A stretch of 64,000 nucleotides of DNA, from NCBI GenBank assembly GCA_904397845.1, contig CAJFOX010000019.1:1-64000 (forward strand), written 5' to 3'. Of the stretch, positions 21,322 through 32,917 are shown piece by piece (position 1 is the stretch's first letter; every line of letters starts with the position of its first letter). This DNA is from an uncultured Oscillospiraceae bacterium (GTDB lineage Bacteria > Bacillota > Clostridia > Oscillospirales > Ruminococcaceae). The notes below the pieces were generated by a model that was not told the origin of the DNA, ran no database searches, and saw only the letters and a list, made by a program, of their open reading frames with translations. Position numbers and translations under genes: made by a program.

Positions 21322-22866
21322 GTGCAAAAAATGGAATATAAGCTGAAAAAAGACCGCATTGCCGTTTGCGAAATCGCATTTGATTCCTTTACCGAACTAC
21401 CCGTTGAAAGTGATCTGCTTCTGCCGGACTACTGCCCGGATATTGTGAAAGTACTGAAATGCCAGGCCCGCCCTGCTTTTTCCAAAACGGAGGTCAGCGG
21501 GGATAAATGTATTTTGGAAGGCGCTACCGCGATTACCGTTTATTATACCGGCGAGGATGGGCAACTGCGAACCAGCGAGCACAAAGTGGAATTTCTAAAA
21601 ACGCTTGAATTGAAAACCACACCGCAGAATCCAATGGTATTTTGCTCTTTGAAAGAGGATTATTTAAACTGCAAAGCGGTAAACCAGCGCCGCATAGATG
21701 TCAGAGGCGCTTTTACCGTCACAGTAAAGATCCTTTCCAGTATGGAGGAGGAAATGGTCAGCGCTGCGGAAGGAGCGGGATTGCAGCTGAGTCACCGGTC
21801 GACGCGTACCAGTGAGCTGGTGGGGACCGCTTATAAAAAATTTACGGTTCGGGAAGATCTGGAACTGGGACAGGAAAAGCCGCCGATGGATTATATCATT
21901 CGGCATAGCGAAAGGGTTCGTACGACTGATTGGAAGGTGACGGGAGGAAAAATAATTGTAAAAGGGGAACTGGAAGTCTTTTTGGAGTACCAGCCTCGAG
22001 AGGAGAGCGCACGGCAATCCGTTCATTACCAGATCCCGGTCAGTCAGATGATGGACGTGGATGGAGCGGGAGAAGAATGTCTCTGCCATGTTCAGCTTGA
22101 CCTGCTCTGGTCCGCCCTGCACCTGCAGACTGACGCGGATGGCTTGACGCGTACTGCTTCTGGAGAGTTCACCTTGGGACTGAGGTGCATTGTTCTGAGA
22201 GAAAACACGATTCTTCCTGCGGTCGATGCGTATTCAACCCAATATGAACTGCAGCTGTCTCCAAAGTCCGTCTCTTTGCTGCTGGCGGTGGGCGGGATGC
22301 CGCAAATCTGCGATTTGGAACAAACCATACAGATGCCGGACTATTTGAAAGAACCGGTGGATTTTTGGTGCGAGACAGGTGCTCTGTCCGTCCTGGCGCA
22401 GGAGCAGACCCTGCTAATCAGCGGAAAGCTGCGTTACTGTATGCTGGGAACCGATGCTGACGGTGTTCCCGTTTATTTTGAACAGGCACAGGATGTGGCG
22501 CAGGAGTATCAGCTGGAAACCAAAGCAGATGACTATTTGCCCGAATGGTCCATTACGGTAGAGGACTGCCAATATGCCATCCAGGAAAAAAACAACCTGC
22601 AATGCCGCTGCCGGCTGCGGGTAGACGGAATGATCCTGGGCGTAATGCCAGTTTCGTTTATCACTGCAATCAAAGTGGATGAAACACGGGAAAAAACACG
22701 GGAAAACCAAAGCGCCATGACCATTTATTATGCTGATGCGGGAGAAAATATTTGGAGCATTGCTAAACGGTACAATACTTCTATTTCAGCTGTGATGGAG
22801 GAAAATGGACTGGAAGATGAGATCCTACCAGAGAAGCGGATCGTGTTAATTCCCATGGTGGGTTGA
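21322..22866 (+). CDS. DUF3794 and LysM-domain protein, likely spore-associated
   Basis: DUF3794 segments (ESDLLLPDYCPDIVKVLKCQARP...) and C-terminal LysM (MTIYYADAGENIWSIAKRYNTSISAVMEENGLEDEILPEKRIVLIP); ATG 21331 is an alternative start. Confidence 0.88.
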   Translation: MQKMEYKLKKDRIAVCEIAFDSFTELPVESDLLLPDYCPDIVKVLKCQARPAFSKTEVSGDKCILEGATAITVYYTGEDGQLRTSEHKVEFLKTLELKTTPQNPMVFCSLKEDYLNCKAVNQRRIDVRGAFTVTVKILSSMEEEMVSAAEGAGLQLSHRSTRTSELVGTAYKKFTVREDLELGQEKPPMDYIIRHSERVRTTDWKVTGGKIIVKGELEVFLEYQPREESARQSVHYQIPVSQMMDVDGAGEECLCHVQLDLLWSALHLQTDADGLTRTASGEFTLGLRCIVLRENTILPAVDAYSTQYELQLSPKSVSLLLAVGGMPQICDLEQTIQMPDYLKEPVDFWCETGALSVLAQEQTLLISGKLRYCMLGTDADGVPVYFEQAQDVAQEYQLETKADDYLPEWSITVEDCQYAIQEKNNLQCRCRLRVDGMILGVMPVSFITAIKVDETREKTRENQSAMTIYYADAGENIWSIAKRYNTSISAVMEENGLEDEILPEKRIVLIPMVG

Positions 22867-23698: not shown

Positions 23699-25105
23699 AT
23701 GATTCGAGAAAATGAGGCGCTGCTGGATCGTTTGAATATTGTGACAGATTTGGTGGTATTGTTTCTTTCTATTGTATTAAGCTATACGGTTCGGTTTCAT
23801 ATCTTTGATTCGACGGAAAATCATCTGCTGCTTTCCTATTATTTGTTGTTTGTACTGGCGCTTCTGCCGATTTATTATCTTATTTTCAGCACTTTTGACC
23901 TGATCTGTGTTTTTCGAACCCGCACTTTCAGCGAAGAGGTGGTCAAATTGATTCAAGCCAATACGGTAATGGCTGGAATCGTTACGGCAGTACTATTTGT
24001 TATGAAATGGCATTATCTGTCCCGCTGGGTGATGGTACAGTATTTCTTCATCAGCACGCTGTTTTTAGTGGGCAAACATTTTTTGATGCGGTGGCTGATG
24101 AGCTATCTGCGAGAAAAGGGATATCATAAAAAGACTCTGATTATCCTGGGATCCGGCGGCTCCGCCAGGGAATATCTGGAGACGATTCGTTCCCGCAAAG
24201 ACTACGTATACGACTATTTGGGCTATGTGTCCAATTACGCCCGGCTGGACGGGGATTATCTGGGGGATTACGGGTCGCTGTATGAGGTGTTAAACGAACG
24301 TAAGCCGGAGGAATTGATCTGTGCGCTGGACATCAGTGAAGCCGGATATCTGGAACAGATCATGTCCGACTGTGAAAAAACCGGAACAAAGGTTTCGATT
24401 ATTCCCTTTTGTTATCGGTATATTCCCAGCCGGCCCTATATTGATCAAATTGACCGAATTCCTCTGATTAATATTCGAAAGATCCCTCTGGACAATTATG
24501 CCAACGCCTTCCTCAAGCGTGCCATGGATTTTTTCGGCGCTTTGATTTTGCTGATTTTATCTTCTCCAATCCTGTTGGTGACTGCCATCGGCGTTAAGCT
24601 GACCTCGCCAGGGCCTGTGATTTTTAAGCAGGAGCGGGTGGGGTTGAATAAGGAACTGTTCACCATGTATAAATTCCGTTCTATGATCGTCAACGATCAG
24701 TCCGACACCGCATGGAGTACCAATGAGGATCCTCGAAAGACAAAATTCGGAGCCTTTATACGCAAATATTCCATTGATGAGCTGCCGCAGCTTTATAATG
24801 TGCTGAAAGGGGACATGAGCCTGGTCGGTCCACGCCCGGAACTGCCATATTTTGTAGAAAACTTTCAAAAAAGCGTTCCACTTTATATGGTAAAGCATCA
24901 GGTAAAGCCGGGTATCACTGGGCTGGCGCAAGTAAAAGGCTATCGTGGGGATACTTCTATCCCGAAAAGGATTGAATGGGATGTGTATTATATTGAAAAT
25001 TGGAGCCTGTTTTTGGATGTCAAAATCTTATTGATGACAGTTTTCAAGGGCTTGAGAAACGAGGAAGTTCTACCTGGCAGCGGAGAAAAGGAGAAGGAGA
25101 AATAG
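23699..25105 (+). CDS. Polyprenyl-phosphate sugar phosphotransferase (exopolysaccharide initiating transferase)
   Basis: KRAMDFFGALILLILSSPILLVTAIGVKLTSPGPVIFKQERVGLNKELFTMYKFRSM...IDELPQLYNVLKGDMSLVGPRPELPYFVE...PGITGLAQVKGYRG. Confidence 0.93.
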   Translation: MIRENEALLDRLNIVTDLVVLFLSIVLSYTVRFHIFDSTENHLLLSYYLLFVLALLPIYYLIFSTFDLICVFRTRTFSEEVVKLIQANTVMAGIVTAVLFVMKWHYLSRWVMVQYFFISTLFLVGKHFLMRWLMSYLREKGYHKKTLIILGSGGSAREYLETIRSRKDYVYDYLGYVSNYARLDGDYLGDYGSLYEVLNERKPEELICALDISEAGYLEQIMSDCEKTGTKVSIIPFCYRYIPSRPYIDQIDRIPLINIRKIPLDNYANAFLKRAMDFFGALILLILSSPILLVTAIGVKLTSPGPVIFKQERVGLNKELFTMYKFRSMIVNDQSDTAWSTNEDPRKTKFGAFIRKYSIDELPQLYNVLKGDMSLVGPRPELPYFVENFQKSVPLYMVKHQVKPGITGLAQVKGYRGDTSIPKRIEWDVYYIENWSLFLDVKILLMTVFKGLRNEEVLPGSGEKEKEK

Positions 25106-25107
25106 CG

Positions 25108-26934
25108 GTGGAAAAAGGCTTTATCTGGGAAAGAAAAAAGAAAAACTGGTTGTTTTTTCCCGTTGCGCTTTTGTTGGCGGTTATGCCGTTTGTGATCCGG
25201 GCGACACAGCATTTTCTAAGCGGGGATTTGTATCGTTTATTCCTTGTCAATCGAAAAACGGAGATTTTCTCTCAGTATCGCGCCCGGTTTTTATGGATTA
25301 TGGCAGCGGTGATGCTGGTTTTGTTGTTAGTATGCTGCAAAAAGCTTTTTGCGGGAATCGATCGGCTGGGCTGGTTTTATTTTGCAGCATGCGGTGTTTT
25401 TCTGTTGTGCTTGGTTCTTTCCGCTCTTTTTTCCGATCATCGGGACACGGCCTTGTGGGGAATGTATGACAGGGCAGAGGGGATGGTCACACAGATTTGC
25501 TATTTGATTTTATTCTTGTATACGGCTCTTTCTTACCGGTCGGCACAGGATTTGAAGCTGTTGATGGCGGCAATGGGCATTTTGATTGCGATCAATGCAG
25601 TCATGGGCATTTCCCAGTTTGCAGGGCATGATTTCATGACCAGCGACTGGGTGAATAACTTGGTGGTACCGGATGAGATTGGCGGAAAAATCAGTACGCT
25701 CCAATTTGAAAAGGCGAAGATGTATGGTACGGCCAACCATTATAATTACCTGGGAAGCATTGCAGCTATGACATTCCCCGTATGTACGGTGCTGGCGCTG
25801 TTTGAAAAACGCTGGAAGTTCCGGATTCCGTTAATCCTGGCGGCGCTGCTCTCTTTGATGCTGTTGCTGGGTTCCACTTCAAGGGCTGGCCTGATTGGTG
25901 TGGCTGCGGCTATGGTATTGGCCGTGATCTTTTTTCGCCGCCTTCTGCTTCGGCATTGGAAACTGGTGCTTTCTGCCATCGGCGGATTGCTAGTCATAAC
26001 GATTGGTGTGAATTTGATCCTGCACAATGCCATTTTTGAACGGATTCCTATGCTTTTTGACGATATCCGGACTATTTTTTCGGATACGTCCGACTTTGAT
26101 TACAAAGACTATATTCCGATCCGCTCTGTGGAAAATACGCCGTCCGGCGCTGTTATTACCGTGCAAAAAGACGCGTTATCCCTTTCGGTGGAAGACGGAG
26201 AGGTCGTTTTCCGGGATCAGTCGGGGCAAGAGGTTCCTTTTACGCAAAATGATGACGGCGTTTTCGTCACGCAGAATCCTGCGTTTGCCGATCTTTCCTT
26301 CCGCCCTGTCAAATCGGTAGAGGGGAATACCCCTTATACATACCTGCGTCTTCTTTATAATGGAAAGCAGCTGCTACAGTTTTATTATGATGAGACCCAG
26401 GTCTATCTTGCAGAAATAGACTCTACTGATCCCATGACGCTGGAAGAGCCCCCCATCGCCGGCTTTTTGAAAGGAAAAGAGCTGATAGGATCGATGCGTG
26501 GCTATATCTGGTCTCGAACCATCCCCATTTTACCCGATTACCTGGTGCTGGGTGCCGGACCGGATTGCTTTTTGTATGAATTTCCGCAGGACGATATTTT
26601 GGGCAAGCTGTATGCTTATGGCACCGGCAGTATTGTAGTTGACAAACCGCACAACCTGTACCTGCAAATTTTCGTCAATGAAGGTGGCATAGCGCTTCTG
26701 GCATTTTTAGCGGTCTGCGTATCTTATCTATGGGACTGCTTTCGTCTGTACGGCGGGCATCGGCAGAACCGGAACGGCCTTCGGGGGATTGCGGTGGGAT
26801 TAGGTGTTGCCGGTTATCTATTTGCCGGGTTTTTTAATGATTCTACCGTCATGACTTCGACCATGTTCTGGATTTTGTTGGGTGTTGGCGTTGGCATGAA
26901 CCGGCAATATCGAAAAGAAAGCGTGGGACTGTGA
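25108..26934 (+). CDS. O-antigen ligase/polymerase-family membrane protein with a large inserted extracytoplasmic segment
   Basis: Multi-TM Wzy/WaaL-like; GSTSRAGLIGVAAAMVLAV; VLGAGPDCFLYEFP; VDKPHNLYLQIFVNEGGIALLAFL; GTG start 25108 after AAGGAG. Confidence 0.82.
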   Translation: MEKGFIWERKKKNWLFFPVALLLAVMPFVIRATQHFLSGDLYRLFLVNRKTEIFSQYRARFLWIMAAVMLVLLLVCCKKLFAGIDRLGWFYFAACGVFLLCLVLSALFSDHRDTALWGMYDRAEGMVTQICYLILFLYTALSYRSAQDLKLLMAAMGILIAINAVMGISQFAGHDFMTSDWVNNLVVPDEIGGKISTLQFEKAKMYGTANHYNYLGSIAAMTFPVCTVLALFEKRWKFRIPLILAALLSLMLLLGSTSRAGLIGVAAAMVLAVIFFRRLLLRHWKLVLSAIGGLLVITIGVNLILHNAIFERIPMLFDDIRTIFSDTSDFDYKDYIPIRSVENTPSGAVITVQKDALSLSVEDGEVVFRDQSGQEVPFTQNDDGVFVTQNPAFADLSFRPVKSVEGNTPYTYLRLLYNGKQLLQFYYDETQVYLAEIDSTDPMTLEEPPIAGFLKGKELIGSMRGYIWSRTIPILPDYLVLGAGPDCFLYEFPQDDILGKLYAYGTGSIVVDKPHNLYLQIFVNEGGIALLAFLAVCVSYLWDCFRLYGGHRQNRNGLRGIAVGLGVAGYLFAGFFNDSTVMTSTMFWILLGVGVGMNRQYRKESVGL

Positions 26935-28076
26935 TGGCAAAAAAAATCCTGTATGTAGCTTCGACTTTCGGGCATTTAAGGACGTTTCATATCCCCTATC
27001 TGAACGCGCTTCTATCCCAGGGAAGCGAGGTTCACGTTATGGGAGCGGGAGACCCGGTCGGTTTTCCGGACGGCGTGACGGCAATCCCGATCCCATTTGA
27101 AAAAAAGATGACTTCTTTGGGCAATTTTAGGTGTGCTTTCCAAATCCGAAAATGGATCCGCAAAGAGGGATATGACCTGGTCAGCGTCCATACATCACTG
27201 GCAGCATTTTTTACCCGGCTGGGGATTCTGCTCAGCGGCCGGCGGCCTTGGGTCATTAATACTGTACACGGGTATCTGTTTGACGAAAATACCTCTTGGA
27301 AAAAACGTATCATTTTGCTGGCTGCGGAAAAATTGACCCGCCCAGTGACCAATGTAGTAGCGGTGATGAACCGGCAGGATGAGCAGATTGCGCAGAAGCA
27401 TCATTTATATAAAGAACAGCTGGTTTTTATCGACGGCATGGGAGTCGATGTTTCCCGTTTTGAAAAAAGCGACGAAACGATCAGGGCAGTACAGGCTTTG
27501 CGGCGGGAATATTTCCTTTTGCCGCAGGAGTTTGTTATGGTATGTGCAGCGGAGTTTTCCGACCGGAAAAACCAGATGTTCTTGATCCGGGCTATCCGGC
27601 GGCTGAAACAGGAGGGGATTCCCTGCAGGTTGATTCTGGTAGGAGAGGGAGAGCAATTTGAAAGGACAAAGTCCTTGGCGGTTCGGCTTTCGGTTCGCAA
27701 AGAGGTCCGTTTCCCCGGCTACACGCGTGATTTGGCCCCTTATTTTTATCTGGCTGATGCAAGCGTATCTGCCAGTAGAATCGAAGGGCTGCCGTTTCAG
27801 ATTATGGAGGCTATGGCCTGCGGACTTCCGGTTATCGCGAGCCGGATCAAGGGTCATGAGGATTTGATCGAACCGGGTGTCAACGGCCTGTTGTTTGATT
27901 TTGACGATGAGGAGGCTTTTTGCCAGGCCGTCCGGCAGCTGTATGAGGATAAGAAGTTGCGGGAAAAAATGGGAAGGGCAGGGCAGGAAAAAGTACAGCG
28001 GTACCGGCTGGAGAGGGTTCTGCCGGAAAATATGAAAAAGCTGTATGCAGAAACGTCGCCGGAACAGGAATCATGA
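26934..28076 (+). CDS. GT4-family glycosyltransferase
   Basis: ILYVASTFGHLRTFHIPYLNALLSQGSEVHVMG; ADASVSASRIEGLPFQIMEAMACGLPVIASRIKGHEDLIEPGVNGLLFD. Confidence 0.93.
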   Translation: MAKKILYVASTFGHLRTFHIPYLNALLSQGSEVHVMGAGDPVGFPDGVTAIPIPFEKKMTSLGNFRCAFQIRKWIRKEGYDLVSVHTSLAAFFTRLGILLSGRRPWVINTVHGYLFDENTSWKKRIILLAAEKLTRPVTNVVAVMNRQDEQIAQKHHLYKEQLVFIDGMGVDVSRFEKSDETIRAVQALRREYFLLPQEFVMVCAAEFSDRKNQMFLIRAIRRLKQEGIPCRLILVGEGEQFERTKSLAVRLSVRKEVRFPGYTRDLAPYFYLADASVSASRIEGLPFQIMEAMACGLPVIASRIKGHEDLIEPGVNGLLFDFDDEEAFCQAVRQLYEDKKLREKMGRAGQEKVQRYRLERVLPENMKKLYAETSPEQES

Positions 28077-28079
28077 TTG

Positions 28080-28120
28080 GGCGCGCAGTAGGCGGAAAGG
28101 CCTGCTGCGCCGTTTGTTTT
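28080..28120 (+). terminator. Intrinsic terminator after the glycan cluster
   Basis: GGCGCGCAGTAGGC ggaaa GGCCTGCTGCGCC gtttgtttttt. Confidence 0.8.
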
Positions 28121-28218: not shown

Positions 28219-28271
28219 TTGACAAATCCAGTTTAAAATTATACAATGAAGAAAATGACGCTACAAATGTA
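28219..28271 (+). promoter_or_regulatory. Promoter and BlaI/CopY-type operator
   Basis: TTGACA (28219-28224), 17 nt, TACAAT (28242-28247); CTACAAATGTAG at 28261-28272 contains TACAnnTGTA. Confidence 0.75.
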
Positions 28272-28283
28272 GGAGAATGCTGT

Positions 28284-28664
28284 ATGAAAATGAGAAAGCT
28301 ACCGGAATCGGAACTGGAAATTATGATTGCATTGTGGGAAGCGGACGGCCCTGTGCCGCGTAATTATTTTGATAGAAAATTAAAGGAAAGAAAAAATTGG
28401 GCGGATTCTACGATTTTAAGCTTGTTGGGCAGGCTTCAGGAAAAAGGCTTCTTGTCCAGTAGCAAGCAGGGAAACCGCAACCTTTATGTGCCGCTTGTTT
28501 CAGAAGAGGAATACTTGGCTTATGAAGACAGGAATTTCCTCCAAAAGCTTCACGGAAATTCCATTCGAAATCTGGTGGCCTCCATGGTCGAAAGCCGGGA
28601 CTTGACTCAATCCGATTTAGATGATCTGCAGCACTACCTGGATCAGATGAAAAAGGAGAAATAG
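28284..28664 (+). CDS. BlaI/MecI/CopY-family transcriptional repressor
   Basis: KLPESELEIMIALWEADGPVPRNYFDRKLKERKNWADSTILSLLGRLQEKGFLSSSKQGNRNLYVPLVSEEEYLAYE. Confidence 0.92.
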   Translation: MKMRKLPESELEIMIALWEADGPVPRNYFDRKLKERKNWADSTILSLLGRLQEKGFLSSSKQGNRNLYVPLVSEEEYLAYEDRNFLQKLHGNSIRNLVASMVESRDLTQSDLDDLQHYLDQMKKEK

Positions 28665-28667
28665 CAT

Positions 28668-31292
28668 ATGGTGGGCCTGTTTGCAAATCTCATGCGCGTT
28701 ACGCTGAACATGTCGGCGTTGGCAGCACTGATTTTGTTTTGTACCCCGCTTTTAAAAAAGAGATATTCGGCCAGCTGGCGTTATTGGGTTTGGATGGTCA
28801 TTACCGTGCGTCTTTTGATTCCCTTTCAAATGCCTGCGATCGAATTACCGGATTTGAGCGGACCGTTCCAGTCCGCTATATCTGCCGCATGGACAGCGCC
28901 ACAGGATTCGAAAACGCAGATTTCTCAGGAAGCGGAGGGGCAGACTCGGCAGGATGCCCCTACCTTGCAAGAACAGTCGAACCAGATAGAACAACAGAAA
29001 ACTTCTGAATCAAGTTCCCTGGCAGAGAAGAAAGCGCAGACGGTTCAAACAGAGCATTTATGGTCGGATTGGAAGACAAAGCTGCAGACGTTCCCATGGA
29101 AAGAAGCGGGAGTTGTCATTTGGGGGTTGGGCGCCGTGGCGGTACTGGCGATCCGCCTGGTATCCTACTGCAGAGTTCGGTGTGTTTTGCGTGCCTATGC
29201 GCGGCCGCTTCAGAATCCTGATTGTCAGACTATTTTGGAGGAAATCCAAAATGAACTGGGGTATCACGGTCCGCTGCGCCTGATGTGCTGCCCGGCGGCA
29301 GCTTCCCCGATGGTGAGTGGCTTGTACCGTCCGTTGCTGCTGCTGCCCCGGCAGGATTATCCGATTATGACGCTCAAGATGATTTTCCGGCACGAACTGG
29401 TTCATGTGATGCGTCATGATTTGTGGTATAAGCTTTTACTGGTTGCGGTGTCTACCGTGCACTGGTTTAACCCGATTATCCATTGGATGGTTCGTGCGGC
29501 AGACCGGGATCTGGAGATTTCCTGCGATGAAAGGGTGACTCGACAGAAGGACAAGGCTTTTCGCATCCAATACAGCGAGGCGATTTTTGAAGTGTTGCAG
29601 CAGGGGGTTGGACGGCGCTTTCTTTTTACCACTGGTTTTTGCAATGAGAAAAAAACGTTGATGCAGCGTTTTTCTGCCATATTTGACACTGATCGGAAAC
29701 CTCGGGGCGCTGTAGTAATGAGCGTTGTCTTGGTCGCGTGCCTACTGACCGGCAGCTTGTTCGGCTGCCGGGCCGACTCGATGCAGACGGCGTCGCTGCC
29801 GGAAGGATTGGCTTCTTCTCAACTTCTTACTGGCAGTACCGGCATAAATGTGGAAGAGGAAGCGCTGGCACAAATGGATTGGACCGCACAGTTATATGAA
29901 ACCTATCGTTTTGGCCATGACCTGGCAGAGTCCGAAGCGCCGGAGGGAGAGGCCGATCTCGGATATGGCTATCTGAAAGAAAAAGGGCTGCTGGATCCAT
30001 ATCTGGATGCGTCAGGCTGGGCGTACGATATCCCATTTGACCAGTTGGCGGAGATCCAAGATTTCTTTATGGTTTCCCCCGTCAGCCGCCCAGACGATGC
30101 AGGTTGGCTCAACCGTTATTCCACGGATTACGCAGAGGATGACCGCTTTGCCTTTTCGTTGGAGAAAAGCGGGGTGAAACAGAAGGAAAACGGGGATATC
30201 ATCATTGATTACCGTCGTTTGGCAGGTGAATCGCATCTGCGCCCGGTACGTTATGTATTCCGTCCTGTTACGGTGCAGAAGGTACCGGAAGCGCTGAAAG
30301 AGGATTTTTCAGAGGGAGACGTTGTATATCAGATTGTCGGCGTAACGAATTTGGATATGGAGCAGCAGCCGGGGCGGCAAACGATTGAGATATCCAATGT
30401 ACAGGAATTATTGGAGGCTGCTGAACGGATTAACGCAGGTGGTTGGCTGAATCAGTATGATACCTATTTGCTGACGGCGGACATTGATCTGTCCGGTGTC
30501 GTGTTCACCCCCATGGGGCAAAACGAGCGTTATTTAGGCCATTGGGACGATGACGATGCCAGAGATCCAACTTTGCGGGGATTCAACGGCGTTTTTGACG
30601 GGCAGGGCCATACCATTTCCGGGTTGCGGTTGGAAGCATCCGAGCAGGACTATCTGGCCGATCCGGACTATGCGCCCGACGGCATTGGCCTGTTCTCTCT
30701 TATCGGTTCAGATGGTGTGGTGAAAAACCTGAATCTGAAAGAATGTATAGTGACTTCTCCATGCCAGTATGGGTCGGAGTACGGCGCGGCGGGCCTTTTG
30801 GCGGGAACGTGCAATGGAACGCTGGAGTCGGTGTCAGTAGAGGGAACAGTAGAAGGCGGTTATGAGGTGGGAGGCATTGCGGGCCAAATAGGAGGCAGCG
30901 CCAGTCACTGTAAGGCTTCGGTAACAGTCAGCGGATTTGGCGAGGTTGGTGCTTTTGCGGGTTCCTTTTGTTATGGGGAGCTAGAAGATTGTACGGCGTC
31001 TGGTCAAGTTCTCTCCATTCAGGCGCAGGATGTGAACAATCAGGAAGCACCGCCCAAAAGCATCGGCGGCTTTATTGGATTTAGCGTGCAGGGAACGGTG
31101 ATTGACTGCGAGGCTTCTGTGTACGTTTCGACAACGGTCAGCTCTAACTGGGTTGGTGCTTTTGCTGGATATGTTCAGAGCTTTCGGGCAGAAAGCTGCA
31201 TGTATGATGCACAAAAAGCATCGGGCTGGAAGACGGTCGGTGTCGTATACAATACCTCGGCGGATGACCAGCAGGATATCCAAGCGGCATAA
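28668..31292 (+). CDS. M56 (BlaR1/MecR1-like) metallopeptidase fused to an extracytoplasmic GLUG-like repeat region
   Basis: N-terminal M56 domain with HELVH and DLEISCDERV; C-terminal FNGVFDGQGHTISGLRL followed by repeats GLLAGTCNGTLESVSVEG, GGIAGQIGGSASHCKAS, GAFAGSFCYGELEDCTAS, GGFIGFSVQGTVIDCEAS, GAFAGYVQSFRAESCMYDA. Confidence 0.88.
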   Translation: MVGLFANLMRVTLNMSALAALILFCTPLLKKRYSASWRYWVWMVITVRLLIPFQMPAIELPDLSGPFQSAISAAWTAPQDSKTQISQEAEGQTRQDAPTLQEQSNQIEQQKTSESSSLAEKKAQTVQTEHLWSDWKTKLQTFPWKEAGVVIWGLGAVAVLAIRLVSYCRVRCVLRAYARPLQNPDCQTILEEIQNELGYHGPLRLMCCPAAASPMVSGLYRPLLLLPRQDYPIMTLKMIFRHELVHVMRHDLWYKLLLVAVSTVHWFNPIIHWMVRAADRDLEISCDERVTRQKDKAFRIQYSEAIFEVLQQGVGRRFLFTTGFCNEKKTLMQRFSAIFDTDRKPRGAVVMSVVLVACLLTGSLFGCRADSMQTASLPEGLASSQLLTGSTGINVEEEALAQMDWTAQLYETYRFGHDLAESEAPEGEADLGYGYLKEKGLLDPYLDASGWAYDIPFDQLAEIQDFFMVSPVSRPDDAGWLNRYSTDYAEDDRFAFSLEKSGVKQKENGDIIIDYRRLAGESHLRPVRYVFRPVTVQKVPEALKEDFSEGDVVYQIVGVTNLDMEQQPGRQTIEISNVQELLEAAERINAGGWLNQYDTYLLTADIDLSGVVFTPMGQNERYLGHWDDDDARDPTLRGFNGVFDGQGHTISGLRLEASEQDYLADPDYAPDGIGLFSLIGSDGVVKNLNLKECIVTSPCQYGSEYGAAGLLAGTCNGTLESVSVEGTVEGGYEVGGIAGQIGGSASHCKASVTVSGFGEVGAFAGSFCYGELEDCTASGQVLSIQAQDVNNQEAPPKSIGGFIGFSVQGTVIDCEASVYVSTTVSSNWVGAFAGYVQSFRAESCMYDAQKASGWKTVGVVYNTSADDQQDIQAA

Positions 31293-31310: not shown

Positions 31311-31343
31311 ACAAAAGGAGATCCTATGGGATCTCCTTTTGTT
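31311..31343 (+). terminator. Intrinsic terminator
   Basis: ACAAAAGGAGATCC tat GGGATCTCCTTTTGT. Confidence 0.85.
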
Positions 31344-31672
31344 CTGCCGGCCCCAATAACAAAAAATGCCGGCGTTCGCGTTTGCTGTGGACAATGCGAA
31401 AAGACAGCGGTTTTGAAATGATGAAGAGAAACAGTGAATTCCAAGAAAACAACTTGTATTTATCAAGCAGCTACGGTAAAATAGAATCGGTTTCAGTTGA
31501 AAATCAGTTTTTCAGGCGGGTATGAGGGGTACGAAAATTCGAATGTGCAAACAGCGCAAGGCGATTTTTTCGCCGCCTGCCTGATTTTGCATGAAAAGAT
31601 TCAGTGCTGAAACAAGATTGCGTCATTGCAAAGATAATAATCAAACGGAAAGACTTTACGGAGGTTTTGTAT

Positions 31673-32917
31673 TTGGATCATTTTTCTTTTTTAACGTTTT
31701 GGGCGCAGTATGGCGATTTTATAAAATTAGCCCTTATTTTTGTGGGGATTATCATTCTGCTGAAATTTAAAATTCCGCTGTCCGGCGCCATCGGGATCGG
31801 AGCGGTGTTGACAGTGGTTTTGTACGGAATCCCTATTTGGGATGCCCTGCTGATTACTGGAAAATCCATGGTCGGTGAATCGACTATTATGGTTATTCTT
31901 AACTGCTATCTCATTACCTTTTTGCAGCGCATGATGGAACTGCGCGGCCATTTGGATTTGGCGCAGCGTTCCCTTTCGCGGCTGTTCAACAGCCGGCGGA
32001 TCAATGCGTCTATCGCACCGGTTTTTATCGGGTTATTGCCATCCCCCGGCGCTATTTTTATTGCGGGTTCCATGGTAGATACCGCTTGCGGGGATTATAT
32101 CAGCAAAGAGGATAAGACTTTTGTCGCGTCCTACTTCCGCCATATCCCAGAAAGCTTTTTGCCGACCTATTCTTCCATTATTTTAGCCTGCCAGCTGACG
32201 GGAGTGCAGATGGGGGCGTTTGTTCTGGGGATGGTGCCGATGGTGGCCTGCTTGATGTTGCTGGGCTATCTGTTTTATCTGCGCCGAGTGCCGAAAGAAA
32301 CAGGAGAAGCTGCTTCAACGGACAAGCTTGCAGACTTGCAGAGTCTATGCCGCAGCCTGTGGACAATTGCGGTTATCATTTTTTTGATCGTTGCATTCAA
32401 CGTTCCGGTATATATTGCTACAGTGGGAGTTATTGTTGTCTATTTCTTTACCAGCCGGTTTACTTGGCAGGAGATTAAGCCCTTTTTCTTATCTGCGTTG
32501 GAGTCCCGTATTGTCATCAATACCTTTGTGGTCATGATTTTCAAAGACCTTCTGACACACACCAATGTTATTACCGAATTGCCCGGCCTGTTTGAGGCGT
32601 TGCCTATTCCCAGCTTTTTAGTATTCGGCCTGATCTTTTTCATTGGCTCCATTGTTGCAGGATCCACCGCGATCATTACGCTGTGCCTGCCTATGGCGTT
32701 TGCTGCAGTGCCTGGTGCGGGCATGCCTTTGATGGTTTTTCTAATGAGCTGTACTTATACGGCGATGCAAATTTCCCCTACCCATTTATGCCTGACCCTG
32801 GCATGCGAGCATTTTAAAACGGATTTTGGTGCGCTGGTCAAACGGACCTTGCCGATTATCGGTATTTTCTACATAATTTTAACAGGATACTATCTGCTTT
32901 TGAACCTGTTTTTTTGA
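31673..32917 (+). CDS. DUF401-like membrane protein
   Basis: Multi-TM; IVGESTIMVILNCYLITFLQRMMELRGHL-like segment, FIGLLPSPGAIFIAGSMVDTACGDYISKEDKTFVASYFRHIPESFLPTYSSI; TTG start after GGAGG. Confidence 0.8.
   Translation: MDHFSFLTFWAQYGDFIKLALIFVGIIILLKFKIPLSGAIGIGAVLTVVLYGIPIWDALLITGKSMVGESTIMVILNCYLITFLQRMMELRGHLDLAQRSLSRLFNSRRINASIAPVFIGLLPSPGAIFIAGSMVDTACGDYISKEDKTFVASYFRHIPESFLPTYSSIILACQLTGVQMGAFVLGMVPMVACLMLLGYLFYLRRVPKETGEAASTDKLADLQSLCRSLWTIAVIIFLIVAFNVPVYIATVGVIVVYFFTSRFTWQEIKPFFLSALESRIVINTFVVMIFKDLLTHTNVITELPGLFEALPIPSFLVFGLIFFIGSIVAGSTAIITLCLPMAFAAVPGAGMPLMVFLMSCTYTAMQISPTHLCLTLACEHFKTDFGALVKRTLPIIGIFYIILTGYYLLLNLFF

Follow-up and report, generated by a model that had tools for sequence, protein, structure and literature searches.

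A BlaI/M56 repressor-receptor gene pair in an uncultured Oscillospiraceae bacterium with a lipoprotein-like GLUG module in place of a penicillin-binding domain

Introduction

The closest described relatives of the locus reported here are the BlaI-BlaR1 and MecI-MecR1 systems of Staphylococcus aureus and Bacillus licheniformis. Like our gene pair, these systems combine a repressor with an adjacent M56 membrane protease bearing zincin motifs, use the operator TACANNTGTA, and place an extracellular C-terminal domain past the last helix of the receptor. In the beta-lactam receptors BlaR1 and MecR1, this domain is a class D-like penicillin-binding domain with SxxK, SxN, and KTG motifs, and the HExxH site of BlaR1 faces the cytosol. 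M56 proteases are a zincin family separate from the site-2 (M50) proteases, so that “site-2-like,” the term an earlier note on this DNA had used for the proposed relay, is inexact.

Other clostridial M56 receptors also join the M56 domain to an extracellular domain that is not penicillin-binding, often with a lipobox in the last helix. Examples are receptors with Germane (L044), IseA (L021), and BNR (L028) domains and the DUF4352-M56 proteins, whose DUF4352 domain has been proposed to aid extracellular ligand recognition (PMC3924330). The receptor described here differs from BlaR1 and MecR1 in that a possibly NTF2-like domain and a GLUG module stand in place of the penicillin-binding domain, a lipobox closes the last helix, and no beta-lactamase or PBP gene was recognized near the pair.

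Results

In the window (the whole 64,000-nucleotide stretch of DNA that we analyzed), two intact open reading frames on the forward strand are spaced 3 bases apart. The first (28284-28664) encodes a 126-aa BlaI/MecI/CopY-family repressor with a Penicillinase_R winged-helix domain (5e-28), and the second (28668-31292) encodes an 874-aa M56 receptor protease matching Peptidase_M56 (PF05569, 2.6e-43) over residues 7-338 (28686-29681, membrane helices included) and Glug (PF07581, 1.2e-6), all three above the curated Pfam cut-offs. By hydropathy, membrane-type segments begin near residues 11, 40, 147, 257, and 349. This multi-helix segment holds the HExxH motif as HELVH (zinc-binding/catalytic, 29391-29405) and, downstream, the C(D/E)E motif within DLEISCDERV (29508-29537), the second conserved M56 motif, which by analogy would provide the third zinc ligand; both had been read correctly in the earlier note. 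A phmmer search of the receptor against the PDB returned BlaR1 only, across residues 132-362.

Past the last helix (residues 348-367, 29709-29768), 507 residues lie outside, in agreement with the earlier estimate of about 500. They comprise a Ser-rich tether after the lipobox cysteine (29769-29846, from the module alignment), a first domain of ~184 aa (29847-30398), and a GLUG beta-helix (30399-31289) with the cap FNGVFDGQGHTISGL and G(G/A)hhG repeats; FNGVFDGQGHTISGLRL is located at 30582-30632. Five GLUG-type repeats had been claimed here, and while the Pfam Glug match supports the repeats themselves, detecting two to three stretches, we counted only four perfect ones (at 30870, 30948, 31065, and 31155). 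Domains, motifs, and intact reading frames thus agree on a BlaI/M56 pair with a GLUG-containing, non-penicillin-binding outside part.

Upstream of blaI, a sigma-70-type promoter matches the consensus at 11 of 12 positions (TTGACA-17-TACAAT, 28219-28247, forward strand), and an operator of the TACA-NN-TGTA type, TACAAATGTA, lies downstream of the -10 box at 28262-28271, 12 bases before the gene. This is the only perfect TACANNTGTA within the window. The operator is identical in a close relative (L006) and reads ACAAGTGTAGG or ACATTTGTAGG at a similar position in the other congeners, and a TTGACA box and an AT-rich second hexamer precede blaI in all four congeners. Two hairpins, both consensus matches only, separate the pair from its neighbors. 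One is terminator-like and closes the upstream polysaccharide gene cluster (28083-28110, forward strand; 11-pair stem, 8 GC pairs, T-rich tail), and the other is a palindrome after the receptor gene and a possible operon end (31311-31342; 14-pair stem), which scored as a reverse-strand terminator and may plausibly stop forward-strand transcription as well.

A pattern-only search over the genome found no target gene beyond the pair's own operon. The general pattern TACANNTGTA was not enriched (9 sites vs. 15 for the reversed pattern), and TACAARTGTA occurred only at 28262-28271 and at two sites before the blaI on contig C37, a distribution which suggests that, as far as the sequence shows, BlaI directly controls only its own operon. 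By DAP-seq, the regulons of two C. thermocellum BlaI proteins comprised just one operon and three operons (PMC8457756). The source genome carries two further blaI-M56 systems, on contigs C37 (L044) and C30 (L043). In the C37 system, the sensor shows a borderline match to Germane (GerMN), and the two operators, TACAAGTGTA and TACAAATGTA, lie 24 bases apart.

Five genomes represent the genus; four contain the receptor, and the pair lies at the same locus in three of the four other congeners. A full-length relative with 65% identity is found in Ruminococcaceae bacterium UBA3818 (L006, counted once with G220), and two further congeners have full-length orthologs at 52% and 38% identity. In all three, the same sugar transferase, O-antigen-ligase-like, and glycosyltransferase genes lie upstream of the pair. 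Such full-length orthologs at one locus exclude chance, and they also ruled out an assembly chimera. The fifth genome (G048) has the same upstream neighbors, an intact blaI (84% identical), and the operator core ACAAGTGTAGG, but the M56 gene is absent at this locus, where an HxlR-like ORF is found instead. This orphan BlaI (L169, 7429-8223) suggests that BlaI may be useful, or at least persistent, without the receptor.

The polysaccharide-type cluster (23699-28076; a Bac_transf sugar transferase, a Wzy_C O-antigen-ligase-like protein, and a group 1 glycosyltransferase) is directly 5' of blaI in five of five species of the genus. Any connection between this cluster and the ligand of the receptor is no more than a guess because the terminator-like hairpin separates the cluster from the pair. 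A DUF401 family membrane protein (31604-32917) follows the operon and is kept in L006 and G150, and a SipL/SPOCS-domain protein of spore assembly (21322-22866) is a sign of a spore-former lineage.

The domain between tether and GLUG, a linker of about 184-190 aa, had been called novel. This holds insofar as it matches no Pfam family (29847-30398), and its profile found no significant sequence match among solved structures in the PDB. Yet it is not unique, as linker and GLUG together make up a single module that is found elsewhere as a free-standing lipoprotein. A model of medium confidence (pLDDT 63, pTM 0.66) shows helices followed by four strands, an order that fits the cone-shaped NTF2-like alpha+beta fold with its curved four-strand sheet. 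The top matches of the fold search were mostly NTF2-like, with VirB8 third, but none was significant (best E 0.05). An AlphaFold model of the entire module, built from two sequences, was not confident (mean pLDDT 44) and was left out of that search. The linker is therefore possibly NTF2-like, which we treat as a lead and not a result. It would fit a survey that repeatedly places extracellular NTF2-like domains behind lipoboxes and interprets them as small-molecule sensors (PMC3924330). If this is so, a small-molecule pocket would be as likely as the polymer, adhesion event, or protein ligand suggested earlier.

The GLUG profile matches the beta-helix region of the Streptococcus pneumoniae IgA1 protease (PDB 6xjb, E 4e-6), where the beta-helix gates access to a secreted protease and moves about 10 Å upon substrate binding (PMC7695701). 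The likeness is confined to that region, the remainder of the protein being unrelated to our receptor.

When 299 genomes of the family were searched at the protein level, the matches included, in addition to M56 proteins, ORFs of ~540 aa whose similarity is confined to the C-terminal part of the receptor, beginning at residue 355 at the earliest. These start with a lipoprotein signal (e.g., LLIALSGC, ALMFSGC, or MLFTVAGC), followed by the same two domains, and are secreted lipoproteins, mostly of ~500-550 aa. They are homologous to the window module from lipobox cysteine to end (G062, G187, G006, G004, G101, and others), with 30-36% identity to five of them, and nine modules aligned over this length share 42 invariant columns. 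Unlike the receptor, the free lipoproteins have no protease domain, and none of their genes is adjacent to blaI or M56, which ruled them out as partners of nearby M56 genes.

With a linker-only profile, the domain was detected in 17 of 398 genomes of the family; in 6 it is fused to M56, and in 11 it is free. Beyond the family, there was one weak match in a sample of 245 genomes from the order, and the GLUG half alone turns up commonly in the secreted proteins of the class. No M56-GLUG fusion was found outside the family among the other class loci inspected, within the stretches examined, and no full-length relative was found on plasmids. Because linker and GLUG form a single module that also occurs as a free lipoprotein, the sensor is best explained as a co-opted lipoprotein, and its free occurrence in 11 family genomes marks the module as an autonomous extracellular unit.

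Four of the six fusions are in the source genus, and the other two (G771 and G098) also adjoin blaI. The M56 tree grouped the genus with G771, with weak support (84), and placed G098 in another M56 subgroup. Holding the M56 domains of all six fusions in a single clade was rejected (p-AU 8e-63), which indicates from the trees that module and M56 came together on at least two occasions. With its long branches, the tree of the module lacked resolution and could not date the fusions. Repeated joining argues for a repeatedly useful sensor. The G098 locus (L152, 4389-8332) encodes BlaI and an M56 receptor of ~1,090 aa, which lacks a lipobox and carries additional extracellular sequence ahead of the NTF2-like/GLUG module.

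In this phylum, M56 receptors ordinarily lack a penicillin-binding domain. BlaR1 scored above its NCBIfam cut-off in only 1 of 300 phylum genomes, and an M56 protein was present in 36 of 59 genomes of the order. Among ten other M56 C-termini scanned, three had a recognizable domain (Germane just under the cut-off, IseA, and BNR), seven had nothing known, and none had GLUG (0/10). The earlier note had allowed that its proposed architecture might turn out common and already characterized. M56 receptors without a penicillin-binding domain are indeed common, so the GLUG receptor is not a new kind, but the GLUG version itself is rare (6 of 398 family genomes). Within the open-access literature searched, we found no paper that brings BlaR1 and GLUG together.

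Discussion

We consider it probable, at about 60%, that the locus is a two-gene autoregulated repressor/protease relay of the BlaI-BlaR1 type with a co-opted lipoprotein module as its sensor. BlaI would repress its own operon by binding TACAAATGTA, the operator seen just past the -10 box. The M56 zinc protease would sit in the membrane with its HExxH site towards the cytosol, and its outside part, with its clear lipoprotein homology, would be a module from a secreted lipoprotein made of a possible NTF2-like domain and the GLUG beta-helix. This module may meet an outside cue, the likeliest candidates being a cell-envelope component, a polysaccharide component, or a small molecule in the NTF2-like pocket, and the resulting movement would travel via the last helix to the protease. 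As modeled on BlaR1 and MecR1, the protease would then cleave BlaI and release the operon and any further targets.

Support for the relay comes from the domain scores above the Pfam cut-offs and the intact M56 motifs, from same-locus orthologs in three of four congeners with operator and promoter kept, from the restriction of TACAARTGTA elsewhere in the genome to another blaI, and from the G771 and G098 fusions beside blaI. In other M56 proteins, the same position is taken by different extracellular domains (borderline Germane, IseA, and BNR), and the equally tiny C. thermocellum regulons and the ligand proposal for DUF4352-M56 point in the same direction. Against it stand the lack of target genes beyond the own operon in the pattern search, the G048 BlaI without an M56 gene at this locus, and the limited confidence of the structural models (a medium pLDDT of 63, with non-significant fold matches, for the NTF2-like lead and 44 for the full module).

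It seems extremely unlikely that the receptor senses beta-lactams after all, through a diverged penicillin-binding fold hidden in the linker, even though NCBIfam blaR1_generic matches the M56 half at 4e-33. The NCBIfam BlaR1/MecR1 models match that half only, with scores far under their cut-offs, and Pfam gave no transpeptidase match. At ~184 aa, the linker is smaller than a class D-like sensor, its predicted helices and four strands rank NTF2-like rather than beta-lactamase structures at the top, and the remainder of the C-terminus is GLUG. Chance SxxK tetrapeptides do occur in the C-terminus, along with a single KSG, but their order is not that of a PBP, and the 65%-identical L006 does not keep the KSG. 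The earlier reading that no SxxK/KTG signature is present therefore stands, and the absent transpeptidase match, fold results, and motif order led us to reject a penicillin-binding fold, class D-like with SxxK, SxN, and KTG, in Pfam, NCBIfam, motif, predicted-structure, and fold searches alike. Alternatively, the module could be a structural or adhesive anchor that holds the protease at the cell wall or glycans, with BlaI answering to another cue or another M56 protein. GLUG beta-helices are indeed common in large secreted proteins, the G048 BlaI persists alone, and the source genome offers two more blaI-M56 systems. Yet the one-to-one pairing with blaI is conserved in three congeners and two other genera, and the same module was repeatedly joined to M56, making this an unlikely account.

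Another reading concerns the last helix, which ends in ...LLTGSLFGC before the Ser-rich tether. Its basic stretch, hydrophobic core, and lipobox (SLFGC, cysteine at residue 367) have the make-up of a lipoprotein signal, internal in the receptor (in the helix after the M56 domain) and N-terminal in the free homologs, where the module begins at the equivalent cysteine. Tentatively, the receptor could be a protease-lipoprotein polyprotein, with Lgt lipidating Cys367 and signal peptidase II cutting before it. It is similarly doubtful, though conceivable, that the mature sensor exists separately as a lipid-anchored protein and acts non-covalently on a three-helix protease. This would modify, not exclude, the relay with a co-opted lipoprotein sensor. 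The lipobox is conserved in all four genus members and in G771, and the loci that keep it include L006, L008, L009, and L137. By a scan pattern that we adapted from published ones, and with clades taken from a quick-search tree, so that the counts are indicative, a lipobox signal past the last helix occurred in 17 of 22 proteins of the window protein's M56 clade (shuffled mean 2.8, maximum 8 in 200 draws), in 8 of 26 in the other M56 clade (shuffled 1.8), and in none of five PBP-type BlaR1 (L156 and L172-L175). In G701 (L143, 2121-4002, reverse strand), blaI, a 298-aa M56-type protein without an extracellular domain, and a lipoprotein gene follow consecutively, possibly a split version of the design with its parts as separate genes; it was the one clear case, most short M56 genes preceding another membrane protein. 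On the other side, five clade members and the G098 fusion have no lipobox, and lipoboxes inside polytopic proteins are not known to be generally processed. Cleavage would also sever the helix-to-sensor link on which the BlaR1/MecR1 models rely (PMC7593790).

Lipobox-like endings of the last helix are widespread in clostridial M56 receptors (e.g., L002, L003, L012, L013, L017, L021, L027, L028, and L033). We would lean away from, but still entertain, the broader idea that a large clade of Clostridia M56 receptors consists of such polyproteins, with the last helix processed by Lgt and signal peptidase II and the sensor detachable and lipid-anchored. Sensors would then have been exchanged as already existing lipoproteins became fused to a generic BlaI/M56 core, and the GLUG receptor would be one product, made at least twice.

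Implications

What this analysis adds is the module as a free lipoprotein with at least two joinings to M56, the lipobox in the last helix, and the operator before blaI. BlaI-BlaR1 pairs are easily annotated as regulators of beta-lactam resistance, and the pair described here has no recognizable beta-lactam sensor, a warning that clostridial blaR1-like genes should not be called resistance genes. The origin of this sensor could be traced to a free lipoprotein module of the same family, which suggests a modular rule of a generic protease core plus a borrowed lipoprotein, marked by the lipobox. A recycled surface lipoprotein as the outside part is a sign that switches of the BlaI/BlaR1 type sense non-antibiotic signals.
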